DNA of 64,000 bases. Source: Pelagibacteraceae bacterium AG-319-F18. GTDB taxonomy: Bacteria > Pseudomonadota > Alphaproteobacteria > Pelagibacterales > Pelagibacteraceae. This document shows positions 41,275-58,885 of the stretch, in pieces. The stretch is taken from NCBI GenBank assembly GCA_003283905.1, contig QBXA01000006.1, positions 1-64,000 of the forward strand, in the 5' to 3' direction. The translations under genes and the position numbers were made by a program. The notes beneath the pieces were generated by a model. That model was given only the letters and a program-made list of their open reading frames with translations, made no database searches and was not told the DNA's origin. The first letter of the stretch is position 1; each line of letters opens with the position of its first letter.

Positions 41275-42114
41275 TTACAAATATTCAAGTTCAATCATTT
41301 CTTTTTCGAATGCTTTTTCTAACTTAATTTTAATCTTATCGTCTAATAACTTTCTCCAGTCATTACCAGGTCCTAGATTAAAAAAAGTTTTTCTTTTACT
41401 AGTTTTTGCATCCAATACACCCTCGTAAAAAGTTTCATTTTGTTCTAAATTTTTTACTTTTTTAAAATCAGTTGACTTAATAGCTTTATTTAACTTCACG
41501 ATATCAAACTGAGATTTCATTCCTAATTTCTCAAGAAACTTTAATATTTTAAGCATAGTACCTTTCTTTTTATTAATTAAATCTTCATATTTAATTAATA
41601 AATATTTGTTTTTAATTCCAAGTTTCTTCCAAGAGTCATAATTAGAATTCCATGAACCTAAAAAAACCCTACAATTTTTTACTGACTTAACTAAAAATTT
41701 TGAATTATCAATCATTGTATCTGCAGCTTCATCTATATTTAAATCGTTATGATGAGCCAGAGAAGTAACTACATTTCTTGGGTCGCGCACAATATAAATT
41801 ACACCAAGAGTATTGTTAAAATCTGTAAAATTAGATCCATGCATTTTACATAATGCACTATGGGTTTTTAAAAATTTTACTTTTCCTTTTTCTTGATTAA
41901 GAAAATTTTGAACATTTATAAAATTTTTAAATATTTCTTCATCATTATCAATATTTATACCAGCTGACATAAATTGACTCGTTAGTGGAAATTGAGAAAT
42001 ATAATTTAGATTGTTAAATGAAAACTCTCCATCTTTTGAATAAAAATATGATGATAAGATAGATCTTAAAAGTGTGTTTCCACTTTTTGGATAGGATGCT
42101 AACCAAATAATCAT
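41275..42114 (-). CDS. Sulfotransferase domain protein (paralogue 2, tandem copy)
   Basis: The 279-residue protein begins MIIWLASYPKSGNTLLRSIL (5'-phosphosulfate loop), has KFLKTHSA with the candidate catalytic His, IVRDPRNVVTSLAHH as 3'-phosphate site and FFNLGPGNDWRKL near the C-terminus. It is highly similar to the upstream neighbour, and the two overlap by one base as TAATG, so they are a tandem duplication translated from one message. Acceptor unknown. Confidence 0.88.
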   Translation of the reverse strand: MIIWLASYPKSGNTLLRSILSSYFYSKDGEFSFNNLNYISQFPLTSQFMSAGINIDNDEEIFKNFINVQNFLNQEKGKVKFLKTHSALCKMHGSNFTDFNNTLGVIYIVRDPRNVVTSLAHHNDLNIDEAADTMIDNSKFLVKSVKNCRVFLGSWNSNYDSWKKLGIKNKYLLIKYEDLINKKKGTMLKILKFLEKLGMKSQFDIVKLNKAIKSTDFKKVKNLEQNETFYEGVLDAKTSKRKTFFNLGPGNDWRKLLDDKIKIKLEKAFEKEMIELEYL

Positions 42115-42968
42115 TATAAATAATGCAATTCTTCCATTTGTTTTTTAAATGAGGTTTCAAGTTTTAGTCTTATTTTTTCATCTAAGAGTTTTCTCCAATC
42201 ATTTTGAGGTCCAAGATTAAAAAAGGGGATTTTTTTTCCTGTTGTATTGTTTGTTCTGCTTTCAATAAAACTTTTTTTTTTTTCTAAATTCCTCATATAA
42301 TTAAAACTTGTTGTATCTATTATGTTTTTAATCTTATCATGGTCTAGATTAAATTTAACTTCTCTTAGCCTATATATAAAGTCTAATATTTTTATTAATG
42401 TTGCTTCTGTGTTATTTAATAAATCTTCATATTTGATTAATAAATATTTTCCAGCTAACTTAAAAGATTTCCAACTGTCGTAGTTACTGCTCCATGAGCC
42501 CAAAAAAACTTTAGTTCTATCTGATTCATATTTGCTATCATAATTACCGCCATACTCTATAGAATTAACCATTCTTTCTGAGGCCTTCTCTACTGAAATA
42601 TTGAAATGATGAGCATAGGATGTGACTACATTTCTGGGATCTCTCACAATATAAATTGCTCCCAAAGAATTATTTAGATCTGTAAATGGATTATTATCAA
42701 TATTAAAAAGGTAACTATGTGTTTTTAAAAAGTTAATTGAATTTTTTTTATTTATAGATTCTTGTGCTTTAATATAATTTTTAATAACTTCTTTCTCATT
42801 TTTTATATCTATTCCTAATTTATGAAAAATGGAAGAACTCGGAAACTGAGTAATATTTTTAATTAGATTAAAGTTAAACAAGCCATCTTGAGTAAAAAAA
42901 TATGAGGAAAGTAGTGCCCTTATCAAAGTATTTCCACTTTTTGGATATGAGGCTAACCAAATAATCAT
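42114..42968 (-). CDS. Sulfotransferase domain protein (paralogue 3, tandem copy)
   Basis: The 284-residue protein has the same architecture as its downstream neighbour: MIIWLASYPKSGNTLIRALL, NFLKTHSY, YIVRDPRNVVTSYAHH and FFNLGPQNDWRKLLDEKIRLKLE. The start overlaps the stop of the Smr gene as ATGA. It therefore belongs to a Tim44-like/Smr/sulfotransferase/sulfotransferase operon, in which the first two genes are conserved alphaproteobacterial neighbours and the last two look like additions. Substrate unknown. Confidence 0.88.
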   Translation of the reverse strand: MIIWLASYPKSGNTLIRALLSSYFFTQDGLFNFNLIKNITQFPSSSIFHKLGIDIKNEKEVIKNYIKAQESINKKNSINFLKTHSYLFNIDNNPFTDLNNSLGAIYIVRDPRNVVTSYAHHFNISVEKASERMVNSIEYGGNYDSKYESDRTKVFLGSWSSNYDSWKSFKLAGKYLLIKYEDLLNNTEATLIKILDFIYRLREVKFNLDHDKIKNIIDTTSFNYMRNLEKKKSFIESRTNNTTGKKIPFFNLGPQNDWRKLLDEKIRLKLETSFKKQMEELHYL

Positions 42969-46891: not shown

Positions 46892-47475
46892 TGGTAATTT
46901 TTTAAATATTCCTTAATTTTAAAAACAGGTAGTCCCATTATAGTATTTTCATCTCCTTTAATGTTCAAAAATAGATTTCTTCCCTCGCCTTCTATTTGAT
47001 AAACATTATAAGCATATAAAGCTTCGTCTGGTATTTTCGATAAATAAAGTTTTAAGTCATCATCTATGAAATTTTTCATTGTTAATTCAGCTTTATCTGT
47101 ATAATTCCAAATCATAGAACCATTTTTTGAAATACACACGGAACTTATCATATGGTGTGTTTTTCCATTTAGTTTCTTTAAAATCTTTAAAGCTTCCTCT
47201 CTACTTTCGGGTTTTGATATTAGCTCGCCATTTAAATCAATTACACTGTCGGCACCTAAAACTATTTGGTCTCTTTCACTTAAACTAACTTTATTAGCTT
47301 TTAATTCTGCTAAATTTTTTGAAATAATTTCTGATGTAGCCGACTCATTGATAAGACTTTCTTTAATTATTTCTTCATCAACATTTGATGGTTTAACTTT
47401 GCAAAATATATTGTGTTTATCTAATATTTCTTTTCTTACTTTACTTTTAGAAGCAAGAATAATTTTATTTAACAT
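46888..47475 (-). CDS. maf: Maf family nucleotide pyrophosphatase
   Basis: Maf hydrolyses non-canonical or modified nucleoside triphosphates. The 195-residue protein has ILASKSKVRKEILDKHNI, GADSVIDLNGELISKPESREEALKILKKLNGKTHHMISSVC and a C-terminal YQIEGEGRNLFLNIKGDENTIMGLPV. All are typical of the family. It lies between ppsR and aroE, with overlaps on both sides, as in the origin region of Caulobacter and Rickettsia. Confidence 0.95.
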   Translation of the reverse strand: MLNKIILASKSKVRKEILDKHNIFCKVKPSNVDEEIIKESLINESATSEIISKNLAELKANKVSLSERDQIVLGADSVIDLNGELISKPESREEALKILKKLNGKTHHMISSVCISKNGSMIWNYTDKAELTMKNFIDDDLKLYLSKIPDEALYAYNVYQIEGEGRNLFLNIKGDENTIMGLPVFKIKEYLKNYQ

Positions 47476-48292
47476 TGTTTGAATATATTTCGTGTATTTT
47501 TATAATGGATGCTGCTGTTTCTTCAACTGATTTTCTTGTGACATCAATTGATGGCCATTTATATTTTTGAAAAGTTTTTTTTGCTTTTATAATTTCCTTT
47601 TTAATATTTTCTATATTTGTATATTTAATGTTTTCAGTTTCTTTTAAAGTGTTCATTCTATTTTTTCTTAACTCAACTAAGCGCTCTGGTTCAGTATTTA
47701 AACCCACAACACAAGTTAATTGTGGATTGTCTCTAAGTTTTTTTGGTAAAGAATTTTCATTTACAAGAGGTATATTTGAGATTTTAAAGCCTTTGTTTGA
47801 AAGATAAATTGATGTAGGTGTTTTGCTTGTTCTGCTAACACCTATTAAAATAATATCCGACTTTTCTATATCATTTACTAAATTTCCATCATCGTGGTTC
47901 ATTGTAAATTGTATAGCTTCAATTTTTTTATAATATTCTTCATTGAGCACATATTGGCCACTAGGTTCATGAGATGCTTTTTGATTAAGAATTTTAGAAA
48001 AATTTAAGATTAAATTTCCAAGCACACCAAAACAAGGGATTTTTTTTTTATTACTTACATTGGTTAAATATTTGGCTAAATTGTTATCCACAATTGTATA
48101 TAAAATAACTGAATTTTCATTTTTTTTTGCATTTGTTAAAATTTTAAAAATTTGATTTTCAGTTCTAGTAAAAGAATAAGAATGAACCTTATATTCAATA
48201 TTTTTAAACTGAGCTTTTAATGCTAAAAATATTCTATCAAGAGTTTCACCAGTTGAATCTGATATAAGATAAATTTGATATGTATTATTCAT
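47465..48292 (-). CDS. ppsR: Pyruvate, phosphate/water dikinase regulatory protein (DUF299, RP001-like)
   Basis: This family comprises bifunctional ADP-dependent kinases and phosphotransferases that regulate PEP synthase or pyruvate phosphate dikinase. The 275-residue protein begins YQIYLISDSTGETLDRIFLA and has the P-loop region IILIGVSRTSKTPTSIYLSNKGFKISNIPLV and the C-terminal DVTRKSVEETAASII. It is the first gene on the left of the predicted origin and is divergent from hemE, the same position as RP001 in Rickettsia and its Caulobacter homologue. Confidence 0.94.
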   Translation of the reverse strand: MNNTYQIYLISDSTGETLDRIFLALKAQFKNIEYKVHSYSFTRTENQIFKILTNAKKNENSVILYTIVDNNLAKYLTNVSNKKKIPCFGVLGNLILNFSKILNQKASHEPSGQYVLNEEYYKKIEAIQFTMNHDDGNLVNDIEKSDIILIGVSRTSKTPTSIYLSNKGFKISNIPLVNENSLPKKLRDNPQLTCVVGLNTEPERLVELRKNRMNTLKETENIKYTNIENIKKEIIKAKKTFQKYKWPSIDVTRKSVEETAASIIKIHEIYSNNVK

Positions 48293-48563
48293 GAATAAGT
48301 TGATAATAAATTTGTATTATTTTAATAAAATTACTCAATTTAAATATTGGTTAATTACTATTGTAAAATAAGGGTTTTATTAACATTAATAAACATATGA
48401 ACAAAATTATACAATATATTGAATAAAAATTTAAAAAGCTTCAATTTAAACAATTTTATTTATTAATAATTGTTATTAAGCTGTTAATAAAGTGTTAAAA
48501 AATATTTATCATCAATATTCACATTACATAATACTAATATAATAAATAATATATTAATTTAAT
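48293..48563. other. Predicted chromosomal replication origin region (ppsR-hemE gap)
   Basis: This 271-bp non-coding gap is one of the longest and most AT-rich in the window, with almost no G or C. It separates leftward genes (ppsR to dnaQ) from rightward genes (hemE onward). In Caulobacter the origin lies between hemE and the RP001 homologue, and the same gene cluster flanks the Rickettsia origin. One-mismatch DnaA-box candidates are TTATTAACA (48377-48385), its inverted copy TGTTAATAA (48482-48490) and ATATTCACA (48515-48523). TTAA-N7-TTAA (48341-48355) resembles a CtrA site. parS and parAB lie about 8 kb to the right. No perfect DnaA box was seen. Confidence 0.7.
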
Positions 48564-49565
48564 ATGAACCCCCTACATCAAGTAATTGTAAATAAAGATA
48601 CAAAGATAAATCCAATTTGGATAATGAGACAAGCAGGAAGATATTTACCAGAGTTTAGAGAAATAAGAAAATCAAATCCAGATTTTATTAATCTATGCTT
48701 GAATGAGAGTTTATCATCAGAAATAACTTTACAGCCTTTAAAAAGATTTAATTTAGATGCTGCTATAATTTTCTCAGATATTCTAATGTTACCATATGGT
48801 CTAAATCAAAAAGTTGAGTTTGAAAAAGGTTTTGGGCCAAAACTTGGAGAGGTGAACATAGATGAAATGTCAAAGAAAGATGAAATTGATTTTGTTAAAA
48901 AATTATATCCAGTTTACAAAGCGATTAAAAAAGTAAGCAATGATAATATTACTAAAAATAAAAACACAATTGGGTTTGTTGGTGCTCCTTGGACGTTATT
49001 AGTTTATATGATTAATCAACAGTCACCTAAAAAGAATTTAAAAAAAGATTTTTTTAAAAATGATTTTTTAATTAATAGAATTTTATTAATTTTGGATAAA
49101 TTTTTAAAAGTACATATTAAAAACCAGATTGATAATGGTGCAAATGTAATACAAATATTTGATAGTTGGGCAGGTTTATTAGAAGAAAAAGATTTACCAA
49201 ACTATGTTTATTCACCCACTCTTAACTTGGTTAATTATGTTAGATCTTTAAATACGCCTGTTATTTGTTTTCCTAGAGAAATTAAAAATTATAAGGAGTT
49301 TTGTGATATTGTAAAACCAGATGCGGTGAGTATTGATTATAATGTTAACCCAAAAAAAATTTTGAGTGATATAAAAATTCCAATTCAAGGGGGGCTTGAT
49401 CCAAAAATACTACTCTCAGACAAAGAAACATTAAAAAAAGAAATAACAAAATATTTAGATATTTTTAAGGATCATCCTTATATTTTTAATTTAGGGCACG
49501 GAGTTTTGCCTGAGACAGATCCCAATATGTTTGAATATTTAGTAAACACAGTAAAAAATTATTAA
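48564..49565 (+). CDS. hemE: Uroporphyrinogen decarboxylase
   Basis: HemE decarboxylates uroporphyrinogen III to coproporphyrinogen III. The 333-residue TIM barrel has PIWIMRQAGRYLPEFREIR (substrate-binding Arg residues), IIFSDILMLPYGL with the essential Asp, GFVGAPWTLLVYMI, IQIFDSWAGLL, and FNLGHGVLPETDPNMFEYLV. It is the first gene to the right of the predicted origin and forms an operon with hemH and hemJ. Confidence 0.97.
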   Translation: MNPLHQVIVNKDTKINPIWIMRQAGRYLPEFREIRKSNPDFINLCLNESLSSEITLQPLKRFNLDAAIIFSDILMLPYGLNQKVEFEKGFGPKLGEVNIDEMSKKDEIDFVKKLYPVYKAIKKVSNDNITKNKNTIGFVGAPWTLLVYMINQQSPKKNLKKDFFKNDFLINRILLILDKFLKVHIKNQIDNGANVIQIFDSWAGLLEEKDLPNYVYSPTLNLVNYVRSLNTPVICFPREIKNYKEFCDIVKPDAVSIDYNVNPKKILSDIKIPIQGGLDPKILLSDKETLKKEITKYLDIFKDHPYIFNLGHGVLPETDPNMFEYLVNTVKNY

Positions 49566-52375: not shown

Positions 52376-53218
52376 CTATAAATATTCTAATTCGGTCATT
52401 TCTTGATAGAAATCTTTTTCTATTTTATTTTTTACATCCTCAGTAAGATTATCTTCCCAATTATTTGCTGGTCCAAGATGAAAAAAATTAACTTTGCTAT
52501 CATCTTTTTTGTTTAATACATTTTCTTTAAATAAACCTTTTTGTTCCATTTCTTTCAGATTTTCAAAGGATGTTGTTTCTAAAATTTTTTTGTTTTTATT
52601 GTTATCCGTTTCAATATTTAGATATTTTTTCAAAAAATTGATGATTTTTTTAAGCTCATTTTCTGGATTTTGAATTAAATTCTCATACTTAATTAATAAA
52701 AGATTATTTTTATTCTTTGTCCAGGAACGATAATGATCATTCCATTTGCCTAATAAACATTGCATGCCCGTCTCTTTCTCCTCCCATCTTTTACTATTTC
52801 CAATAATTTGAGGTGTCATTAAAAAATCGGATGCCTTGTCTATAGTTAAAGTATAGTGATTTGATATAGATGAAATTAATGTTCTGGGATCTCTCACCAT
52901 GTAAATTGTTGCAAGTGTATTTTGATCATTTGTGAAATTATCTTTACCAACAGTATATTTACCTTGGTGAGTTTTGAGAATTTTGATCTGATTATCTAAA
53001 TTAATCATATCTTGTGCCGATATCCAGTTTTCTTTTATTTCATTAAAATTACCAAAATCATTAACGAAATTTTTAAAATATTTTTTTTCTGGAAATTGGC
53101 TTACTTTTAACATTAATTCAAAATTAAAATTTCCATCATCAGAATATAATAATGATGAAATTATTGACCTCACCCAAGTATTCCCACTTTTTGGATAAGA
53201 TGCTAGCCAAATAATCAT
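52376..53218 (-). CDS. Sulfotransferase domain protein (paralogue 4)
   Basis: The 280-residue protein has MIIWLASYPKSGNTWVRSII, KILKTHQGKY with a candidate catalytic His, IYMVRDPRTLISSISNHYTL and the C-terminal FFHLGPANNWEDNLTEDVKNKIE. It is the most diverged of the four single-domain paralogues. It lies alone on the minus strand between rho and mnmE, which are on the plus strand and usually close to each other in this cluster, so it looks like a later insertion. Substrate unknown. Confidence 0.88.
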   Translation of the reverse strand: MIIWLASYPKSGNTWVRSIISSLLYSDDGNFNFELMLKVSQFPEKKYFKNFVNDFGNFNEIKENWISAQDMINLDNQIKILKTHQGKYTVGKDNFTNDQNTLATIYMVRDPRTLISSISNHYTLTIDKASDFLMTPQIIGNSKRWEEKETGMQCLLGKWNDHYRSWTKNKNNLLLIKYENLIQNPENELKKIINFLKKYLNIETDNNKNKKILETTSFENLKEMEQKGLFKENVLNKKDDSKVNFFHLGPANNWEDNLTEDVKNKIEKDFYQEMTELEYL

Positions 53219-56583: not shown

Positions 56584-57248
56584 TGGATCAAGAAATTTTA
56601 AATTTATATTCTAAACTTAATGACTTAAATGTTTCACGTGAAACATTTATAGACTTTGAAAACTATATATCCATGATTATTGAAAAAAATAAAAAAATCA
56701 ACATAATCAGTCATAAAACATCGTCAAAAAAGGCTATAATTGACCGCCATATTATTGATTCTGCACAAATCATTGATTTTGTTAACTTTAATAGCAATAC
56801 AACTACAGATTTAGGATCTGGAGCAGGTATGCCAGGAATTGTAGTAGCAATTATACTTAAAAACATGAAGAATAACATGAATGTACATCTTTATGAAAAA
56901 AGCTACCATAAAAGCCGATTTTTGAAAGAAGTTTCAGAAAAACTAAATTTAAATACAAAAGTTTTTCAAAAAAATATTTTTGAAATAAAAAATTTAGAAA
57001 CAGGTACGGTTATGTCAAGAGCATTCAAGCCAATGCCGGTGGTTCTAGATTTAGTTTATGAAAATTTTTCAAAATATAAAAATTTAATTTTCTTTATGGG
57101 AAAGAGTGGAAAAAAAATATTTGAAAAATCTAAAAATGATTGGGATTTAGAGTATATAGAAAAAAAAAGTTTAACAAATGAGGATTCATTTTTATTAAAC
57201 ATAAAAAAAATTATTAAGAAAAATAAAAAAAGATATAAGGAAAATTAA
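56583..57248 (+). CDS. rsmG: 16S rRNA (guanine-527-N7) methyltransferase RsmG
   Basis: RsmG methylates G527 of 16S rRNA. The 221-residue protein has NVSRETFIDFENYISMIIEKNKKINI at the N-terminus, RHIIDSAQI, the SAM loop TDLGSGAGMPGIVVAI and a C-terminal Lys-rich tail. The codons for NVSRETF contain a perfect parS site, a known dual use of this conserved peptide. It sits between mnmG and parA, with a 1-nt overlap and no gap respectively. Confidence 0.95.
   Translation: MDQEILNLYSKLNDLNVSRETFIDFENYISMIIEKNKKINIISHKTSSKKAIIDRHIIDSAQIIDFVNFNSNTTTDLGSGAGMPGIVVAIILKNMKNNMNVHLYEKSYHKSRFLKEVSEKLNLNTKVFQKNIFEIKNLETGTVMSRAFKPMPVVLDLVYENFSKYKNLIFFMGKSGKKIFEKSKNDWDLEYIEKKSLTNEDSFLLNIKKIIKKNKKRYKEN
56626..56649. 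promoter_or_regulatory. parS centromere site inside rsmG
   Basis: TGTTTCACGTGAAACA at 56630-56645 is a perfect match to the chromosomal parS consensus bound by ParB. The inverted symmetry extends to 24 bp (56626-56649). It lies in the rsmG coding sequence about 600 bp upstream of parA and about 8 kb from the predicted origin, as expected for an origin-proximal centromere. Confidence 0.95.
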
Positions 57249-58043
57249 ATGAAAATTATTTCAGTAATAAATCAAAAGGGCGGGGTAGGAAAAACAACTA
57301 CCGTTATAAATTTAGCAGCTGGATTAACTCAACTTAATAAAAAAATTTTAGTAATTGATTTAGATCCTCAAGGAAATGCAACAACAGGTCTAGGATTATC
57401 TAATATAGACAACTCAAGCGACACAATTTATGGTGTATTGAATGGAACTAGAGAGATTAATGAGATAATCAAGAAAACACAGTTTGAAAATTTAGATATC
57501 ATCACCTCTAATGTAGACTTATCAGGACTTGAAGTCGAAACGGCTGACGATAGTAATAGAGCCTTTATATTAAAGGCTAAATTAAGCCCTTATTTAAACA
57601 ATTCTAGAGGGTCGTACGATTATGTTCTGATTGATTGTCCACCTTCCTTAAGTCTTCTTACAGTTATGGCGCTTGTCTGCTCCAACTCACTTTTGGTTCC
57701 TTTGCAAACAGAATTCTTTGCTCTAGAGGGTCTAACTCAGTTAATGAAAACAATTGAGAGGATAAAAGTGAGTCTAAATCCTGATTTAAAAATCCGAGGG
57801 ATTCTTTTGACCATGTATGACAAACGAAATAAGCTTTCTTCACAAGTTGAAAAGGAAGCTAGAGACTATTTTAGTGAAAAAGTTTATTCAACAGTAATAC
57901 CAAGGAATGTAAGGTTATCAGAGGCACCTTCACATGGAATGCCAGTTTTAATTTATGACAAATCCTGTCCTGGCAGCAAATCCTATTTTAGTTTTACTGA
58001 TGAATTTATAAATCAAGAGTCAACAATAGGGAGTGATGCTTAA
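57249..58043 (+). CDS. parA: Chromosome-partitioning ATPase ParA
   Basis: ParA (Soj) is a Walker-type ATPase whose DNA-bound gradient moves ParB-parS complexes. The 264-residue protein has the deviant Walker A INQKGGVGKTTTVINLAAGL, LVIDLDPQGNATTGLGL, DYVLIDCPPSLSLLTVMAL and VPLQTEFFALEGLTQLM. It follows rsmG with no gap and overlaps parB by 1 nt. Confidence 0.97.
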   Translation: MKIISVINQKGGVGKTTTVINLAAGLTQLNKKILVIDLDPQGNATTGLGLSNIDNSSDTIYGVLNGTREINEIIKKTQFENLDIITSNVDLSGLEVETADDSNRAFILKAKLSPYLNNSRGSYDYVLIDCPPSLSLLTVMALVCSNSLLVPLQTEFFALEGLTQLMKTIERIKVSLNPDLKIRGILLTMYDKRNKLSSQVEKEARDYFSEKVYSTVIPRNVRLSEAPSHGMPVLIYDKSCPGSKSYFSFTDEFINQESTIGSDA

Positions 58044-58885
58044 TGGATAAAATTAAAAAAGGTTTAGGAAGGGGTTTGTCATCACTAATTGGTGAAACTA
58101 AAGTAGAGGTTCAAAAAAATCAATTATCAATAAGTGATTTAATACCAAATAAATACCAACCAAGAAAGAATTTTGATGAGGCAAACTTAGAGGATTTAAC
58201 AAATTCTATAAAAGAAAGGGGGATGATACAGCCGATCATAGTTAGAAAACCAAATAACGAAAATTCAAAATTTGAAATAATTGCAGGTGAGAGAAGGTGG
58301 TTAGCAGCACAGAGAGCAGGCATGCATAATGTTCCTGTGGTAATCACAGAAGCAGATGACTTAAAATCTTTAGAGTTTGCGATAGTTGAAAATGTTCAAA
58401 GACATGATTTAAATCCTCTTGAAGAAGCTCAAGGTTATAAACGTTTAATAGATGAATTTTCTTATGATCAAGAAAAAGTTTCAAAATTTATAGGTAAGAG
58501 TAGAAGCTATATAACAAATTCTTTGAGAATACTAACTTTACCAGAAAAAGTTATAAAATTAATAGAGTCTAACAAGTTATCGACAGGACATGCTAAGATT
58601 TTAGTAGGCCTTAACAATGCAAGTTTTGTAGCTAATAAAATTATAGAAAATAAACTTTCAGTAAGACAAGCAGAAAATTTTGTTCAATTATTTAAAAAGA
58701 AAAGACAAAAGTCAAAGATCACAAAAGATACTAATATTTTAGCTCTTGAACTTTCAGCATCAAATAAAATAGGATTAAATGTGGAAATACAAAACAACAA
58801 GAGAAATAAAGGAAAAATTTCGTTTGAGTACAAAGACCTAGATCAGCTAAATAAAATAATAGATATAATCAAATCTTATTATTAG
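58043..58885 (+). CDS. parB: Chromosome-partitioning protein ParB
   Basis: ParB binds parS and spreads as a CTP-dependent clamp. The 280-residue protein has the ParA-interacting N-terminus KKGLGRGLSSLIGE, the Box I/II region NKYQPRKNFDEANLEDLTNSIKERGMIQPIIVR and EIIAGERRWLAAQRAG-type CTP-binding motif, VENVQRHDLNPLEEAQGYKRL, a HTH segment SKFIGKSRSYITNSLRIL and a short C-terminal dimerisation region. The cognate parS is in rsmG. It ends 4 bp before the convergent holA. Confidence 0.97.
   Translation: MDKIKKGLGRGLSSLIGETKVEVQKNQLSISDLIPNKYQPRKNFDEANLEDLTNSIKERGMIQPIIVRKPNNENSKFEIIAGERRWLAAQRAGMHNVPVVITEADDLKSLEFAIVENVQRHDLNPLEEAQGYKRLIDEFSYDQEKVSKFIGKSRSYITNSLRILTLPEKVIKLIESNKLSTGHAKILVGLNNASFVANKIIENKLSVRQAENFVQLFKKKRQKSKITKDTNILALELSASNKIGLNVEIQNNKRNKGKISFEYKDLDQLNKIIDIIKSYY

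Follow-up and report, generated by a model that had tools for sequence, protein, structure and literature searches.

The ppsR-hemE gap as the predicted replication origin of a Pelagibacter (SAR11) genome

Where does chromosome replication start in Pelagibacter, and is the origin of the kind used by other Alphaproteobacteria? The question is raised by a very AT-rich gap between ppsR and hemE, as hemE and COG1806, the family of ppsR, are the boundary genes of the Caulobacter and Rickettsia origins (PMC1914354). An earlier note on this DNA had predicted the origin in this gap, and the skew, a strand-bias switch in related genomes and a set of conserved DnaA boxes now support that prediction. Judged from sequence, the gap is very probably the oriC of this SAR11 genome, at which DnaA would bind, the duplex would melt and replication would initiate.

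The window, that is, the whole 64,000-nucleotide stretch that was analysed, covers positions 1-64000 of contig C6 in a genome of 42 contigs and 1.13 Mb. The predicted origin comprises the entire gap, 48293-48563 (no strand assigned), which is 271 bp long here and 261-289 bp long across the 97 genomes sampled. It is bounded by ppsR (47465-48292, minus strand; COG1806, Kinase-PPPase, DUF299; Pfam E 6.7e-87), a homologue of RP001 and CC0001, and by hemE (48564-49565, plus strand; URO-D E 2.7e-83), and the two genes diverge from it. The closest named relatives of the PpsR protein are from Pelagibacteraceae single-cell genomes, with identities of at most 92%, which places the genome in SAR11. The Pfam matches to both genes bear out the proposed junction between hemE and the RP001 homologue as in Caulobacter, the same boundary pair as in PMC1914354, and the gap falls within the 200-1000 bp between hemE and COG1806 by which this class of origins is in part defined (PMC1914354). 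Beyond ppsR lie maf, aroE, coaE and a dnaQ-type exonuclease gene, the flanking set named in the earlier note, and beyond hemE follow hemH, hemJ and rho (named from their sequences) and then mnmE, mnmG, rsmG, parA and parB. The extreme AT-richness that had been claimed is confirmed, as the GC content is 12.9% in the gap and 27.7% in the window, and 0.013% of 271-bp windows are equally AT-rich; the AT content of the gap thus exceeds the genome average, a further feature of the class. Likewise, parS and parAB had been placed about 8 kb away, and an exact parS site, TGTTTCACGTGAAACA, is found at 56630-56645 (plus strand) within rsmG/gidB, 8.1 kb from the gap, with parA and parB downstream of it at 57249-58885 (plus strand). 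In G012, a genome of the same genus, the sole parS site at up to two mismatches lies 7.2 kb from the orthologous gap. Three related genes with the start MIIWLASYPKSGNT, sulfotransferase-like by sequence, flank the locus on both sides (41275-42114, 42114-42968 and 52376-53218). A second DNA match to the gap, 42 bp of AT-rich DNA with 84% identity, was found at G000:C6:66859.

The earlier note had named in advance a skew minimum elsewhere on the chromosome as an observation that would speak against its prediction. That test was applied here and did not overturn the prediction. Within the window, the cumulative GC skew reaches its minimum at 47712, at a distance of 581 bp from the gap. Because the genome is 79.6% complete and split into 42 contigs, whole-chromosome skew was taken from relatives, with G012 (one contig, 1,343,202 bp) as the reference. 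In G012, the raw minimum is at 1,290,841, the detrended minimum at 1,231,116 and the maximum at 615,774; the orthologous gap (1,261,949-1,262,209) is located between both minima, with the maximum on roughly the opposite side of the chromosome. When fourfold-degenerate sites were scanned over all of G012 with gene strand taken into account, the best switchpoints came out at 1,255-1,265 kb, with the gap at 1,262 kb. The same scan in G168 gave its best point at 335,501, at the gap and 96 log units above the null, and in G064 the signal was weak but consistent, with the gap 1.0 unit under the best point; both of these scans covered 400 kb centred on the gap and may therefore favour the centre. A GC-skew shift at the gap, also a feature of the class, is thus seen over the whole chromosome in relatives and locally in the window. 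A single V-shaped coverage peak is reported for SAR11, in passages that link it to no gene (PMC9589681).

If the gap is an origin, DnaA boxes would be expected in it. For the genus we used the consensus TTATNMACA, which occurs 174 times in 57 gaps compared with 10.2 times in dinucleotide shuffles, although M at position 6 was set with the alignment already in view; the standard box defined a priori, TTATNCACA, occurs 40 times in the 57 gaps compared with 1.8 times in the shuffles. For all such box statistics, the 97 gaps share ancestry and do not represent independent trials. The densest box cluster of the entire G012 chromosome is the gap, in line with the box density that is expected of this class. 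The alignment of the gap across relatives, which the earlier note had proposed, indeed shows conserved 9-mers. Seven box positions are conserved among the 97 genomes, namely A(-), B(+), C(-, weak), D(-), E(-), F(-) and G(+), with mean mismatches from 0.43 to about 1.7 and in no case above 1.8, whereas nearly all other positions have a mean mismatch of at least 2.47, the exceptions being shifted registers and a weak position at 48406 (1.81). In the window's own gap, the exact standard box is absent and two exact copies of TTATNAACA occur; only two boxes in this gap are perfect. Position A, 48301-48309 on the minus strand, reads TTATTATCA with one mismatch (alternative register 48298-48306, TTATCAACT) and is perfect in 58% and within one mismatch in 78% of the 97 genomes. 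Box B, TTATTAACA at 48377-48385 (plus strand), matches TTATNMACA perfectly, as it does in 48% of genomes, with 86% within one mismatch. Position C, at about 48396, is conserved in 27% of genomes and is not recognisable in the window's gap. On the minus strand follow D (TTAATAACA, one mismatch, 48471-48479), E (TTATTAACA, 48482-48490) and F (TTTTTAACA, one mismatch, 48493-48501), whose starts are spaced by exactly 11 bp. Box G, ATATTCACA at 48515-48523 (plus strand) and TTATTCACA in most relatives, is the best conserved, being perfect in 65% and within one mismatch in 92% of genomes. Three candidates had been placed correctly before, namely B, its inverted copy E 105 bp away (48482) and G (48515), and overlooked were D and F, the 11-bp phasing and the repeat described below. 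The boxes had also been called degenerate, which holds against the standard TTATNCACA only and not against the genus consensus. We consider the sequence case for a DnaA-box array in the gap, and for the location of the origin there, to be strong.

Next to box G lies a candidate for the site of unwinding. A basal unwinding system (BUS) consists of a DnaA box, a spacer and DnaA-trios (PMC8287927, PMC10721633), and 4 bp past box G, at 48528-48539 on the minus strand, there is a DnaA-trio-like repeat of four trios with a three-base pattern of conservation (top strand ATA ATA CTA ATA, bottom strand 3'-TAT TAT GAT TAT-5'). An NTA triplet repeat follows box G in most genomes, with 3'-NAT-5' repeated on the bottom strand, and A stands at each of the columns +15, +18, +21 and +24 in 95-98% of 164 unique sequences; the phase bias of the repeat in these sequences is modest (shuffle P 0.027). 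With two mismatches of box G to TTATCCACA, a spacer of 4 and four trios, the site falls within the sequence definition of a BUS (box with up to two mismatches, spacer of 0-16 bp and three or more NAN trios), although in DNA so rich in AT this definition alone carries little weight. Probably, this trio site is where DnaA would be loaded and the DNA melted. The SAR11 gap resembles the published systems in having box G, a 4-bp spacer and at least three trios whose middle A lies on the bottom strand, but differs in that it has one box and not a co-oriented pair and that three of its four trios lack the preferred 3'-G. A third difference concerns the initiator. Full-length DnaA is encoded on another contig of the genome (L171:937-2361); it aligns over its full length with B. 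subtilis DnaA (entry 8btg) and keeps the RDHTT recognition helix (DHTT), but has a tyrosine at the position aligned to B. subtilis Asn187, the residue that reads the middle adenine of the trio (PMC10721633).

Two other explanations would place the origin elsewhere. The gap could be only the divergent promoter region of ppsR and hemE, with the conserved 9-mers as transcription-factor or DnaA-regulated operator sites. The divergence of the genes fits this, as do possible -10 elements, namely a conserved TATAC block at 48408-48412 and a TATAAT at 48538-48543 (plus strand; TACAAT in many relatives), which overlaps the trios and may belong to a hemE promoter. However, a promoter region would not account for the strand-bias switch or for the genome's densest box cluster at the gap, the three-base pattern is no promoter signature, and the element persists when either neighbour is gone. 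In the sister family (L178-L188), ppsR has been lost and hemE faces maf over 271-281 bp, and the homologous place at the hemE edge has ...TTCACAGGTACAACTACTACTACTATTC or sequences close to it, a DnaA box with CTACTACTACTA DnaA-trios after it in the textbook form of the BUS as published. In G240, of the same family but another genus, hemE (at 718 kb) has moved about 577 kb from ppsR (at 141 kb), and the ppsR-rho gap (L259:430-782, G240:C1:141329-141681; 353 bp, 17% GC) contains three exact TTATNMACA boxes; a skew sign change is absent within 20 kb on each side of that gap. That the element is kept where the sister family lacks ppsR and where hemE has moved away in G240 indicates that it belongs to neither promoter, and we regard the promoter explanation as very unlikely. 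Many other bacteria have their origin at dnaA, but such a location appears even less probable here. In G012, only about 62 kb separate dnaA from the gap, and a weaker box cluster lies about 2 kb from dnaA, but that cluster scores 2.5 against 3.75 for the gap, and around 1,200 kb the likelihood of the G012 scan is 11 units below its value at the gap.

With the ppsR-hemE gap as the preferred origin, it can be asked whether it is controlled by CtrA as in Caulobacter. The earlier note had described one TTAA-N7-TTAA in the gap as a possible CtrA site; there are two, at 48340-48354 and 48484-48498 (both plus strand), and the 97 gaps together hold 54 compared with 24 in mononucleotide shuffles. Nevertheless, the motif occurs in the window about as often as chance predicts (20 compared with 22.4 expected), the two sites are kept in only 8/97 and 7/97 genomes, respectively, and the excess is at least partly due to TTAA-bearing DnaA boxes spaced by 11 bp, the site at 48484 being itself composed of boxes E and F. 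No gene in any of the genomes reached the cut-off of the CtrA model, which was made for Rhodobacterales, and one of its best matches, in G012, adjoins pstB and phoU, as PhoB does. In accordance with this, Brilli et al. did not find a ctrA orthologue in Pelagibacter (PMC2877005). Neither conserved sites nor a CtrA protein, which together would place the gap among CtrA-regulated origins, were thus found; the suggested CtrA binding does not hold up, and we give CtrA control hardly any credence. IHF sites (WATCAN5WTR) are not enriched, with 29 in 97 gaps compared with 43 in shuffles; such sites are among the seven criteria of PMC1914354, not all of which are required in every genome. GANTC is absent from the window's gap and occurs three times in the 97 gaps compared with 16.3 times in dinucleotide shuffles. 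GTNAC and TGNCA show the same degree of depletion, so the scarcity is not particular to GANTC. A CcrM homologue is present in SAR11, and an origin-to-terminus methylation gradient has been described there.

The SAR11 gap shares with the Caulobacter crescentus Cori (hemE / CC0001-COG1806) the boundary genes and their divergence, DnaA boxes, an AT-rich stretch and nearby parS/parAB. The boxes of Cori are G and W boxes, compared with TTATNMACA in SAR11. The SAR11 gap, at 271 bp, is about a third shorter than Cori with 404 bp (PMC1914354), and it lacks GANTC and supported CtrA sites. The Rickettsia hemE / RP001 origins have the same flanks and a similarly very high AT content (82-83%, PMC1914354), but are 383-396 bp long and have usually been assigned several CtrA sites; box positions conserved across many genomes are shown here for the SAR11 set only. 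Several lines of independent evidence thus point to the same kind of origin as in other Alphaproteobacteria, but stripped down and with CtrA not in control. Judged by eye, several gaps across the class (L234, L236, L238, L243, L244, L247, L251 and L255) have a box ending in CACAGG, followed by CTAC or CAAC repeats toward hemE. As a tentative and rather doubtful extension, one might speculate that the origin of SAR11 is streamlined and CtrA-free, that it melts by a one-box BUS in which a DnaA with tyrosine at the Asn187 position reads trios with a relaxed first base (3'-NAT-5' and not 3'-GAT-5'), and that the BUS at the hemE edge is an ancestral feature of the class, retained in textbook form in the sister family.

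We propose that DnaA would bind boxes A and B on the outside as well as the D-E-F array, in which the spacing of 11 bp would bring consecutive DnaA molecules to the same face of the helix. Starting at box G, which lies at the hemE edge, DnaA would then be loaded onto the bottom strand of the neighbouring trio repeat, which would open the AT-rich end near hemE so that the helicase can be loaded. Replication forks would depart in both directions, and parS/ParAB would segregate the new origins.

SAR11 bacteria belong to the most abundant cells of the ocean. Estimates of their growth in the sea use origin-to-terminus read ratios, for which the origin needs to be known. A conserved origin resolved to the base would provide a fixed anchor for those estimates as well as for replicating vectors. 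In addition, the SAR11 origin would show what an alphaproteobacterial origin retains once CtrA control is gone.
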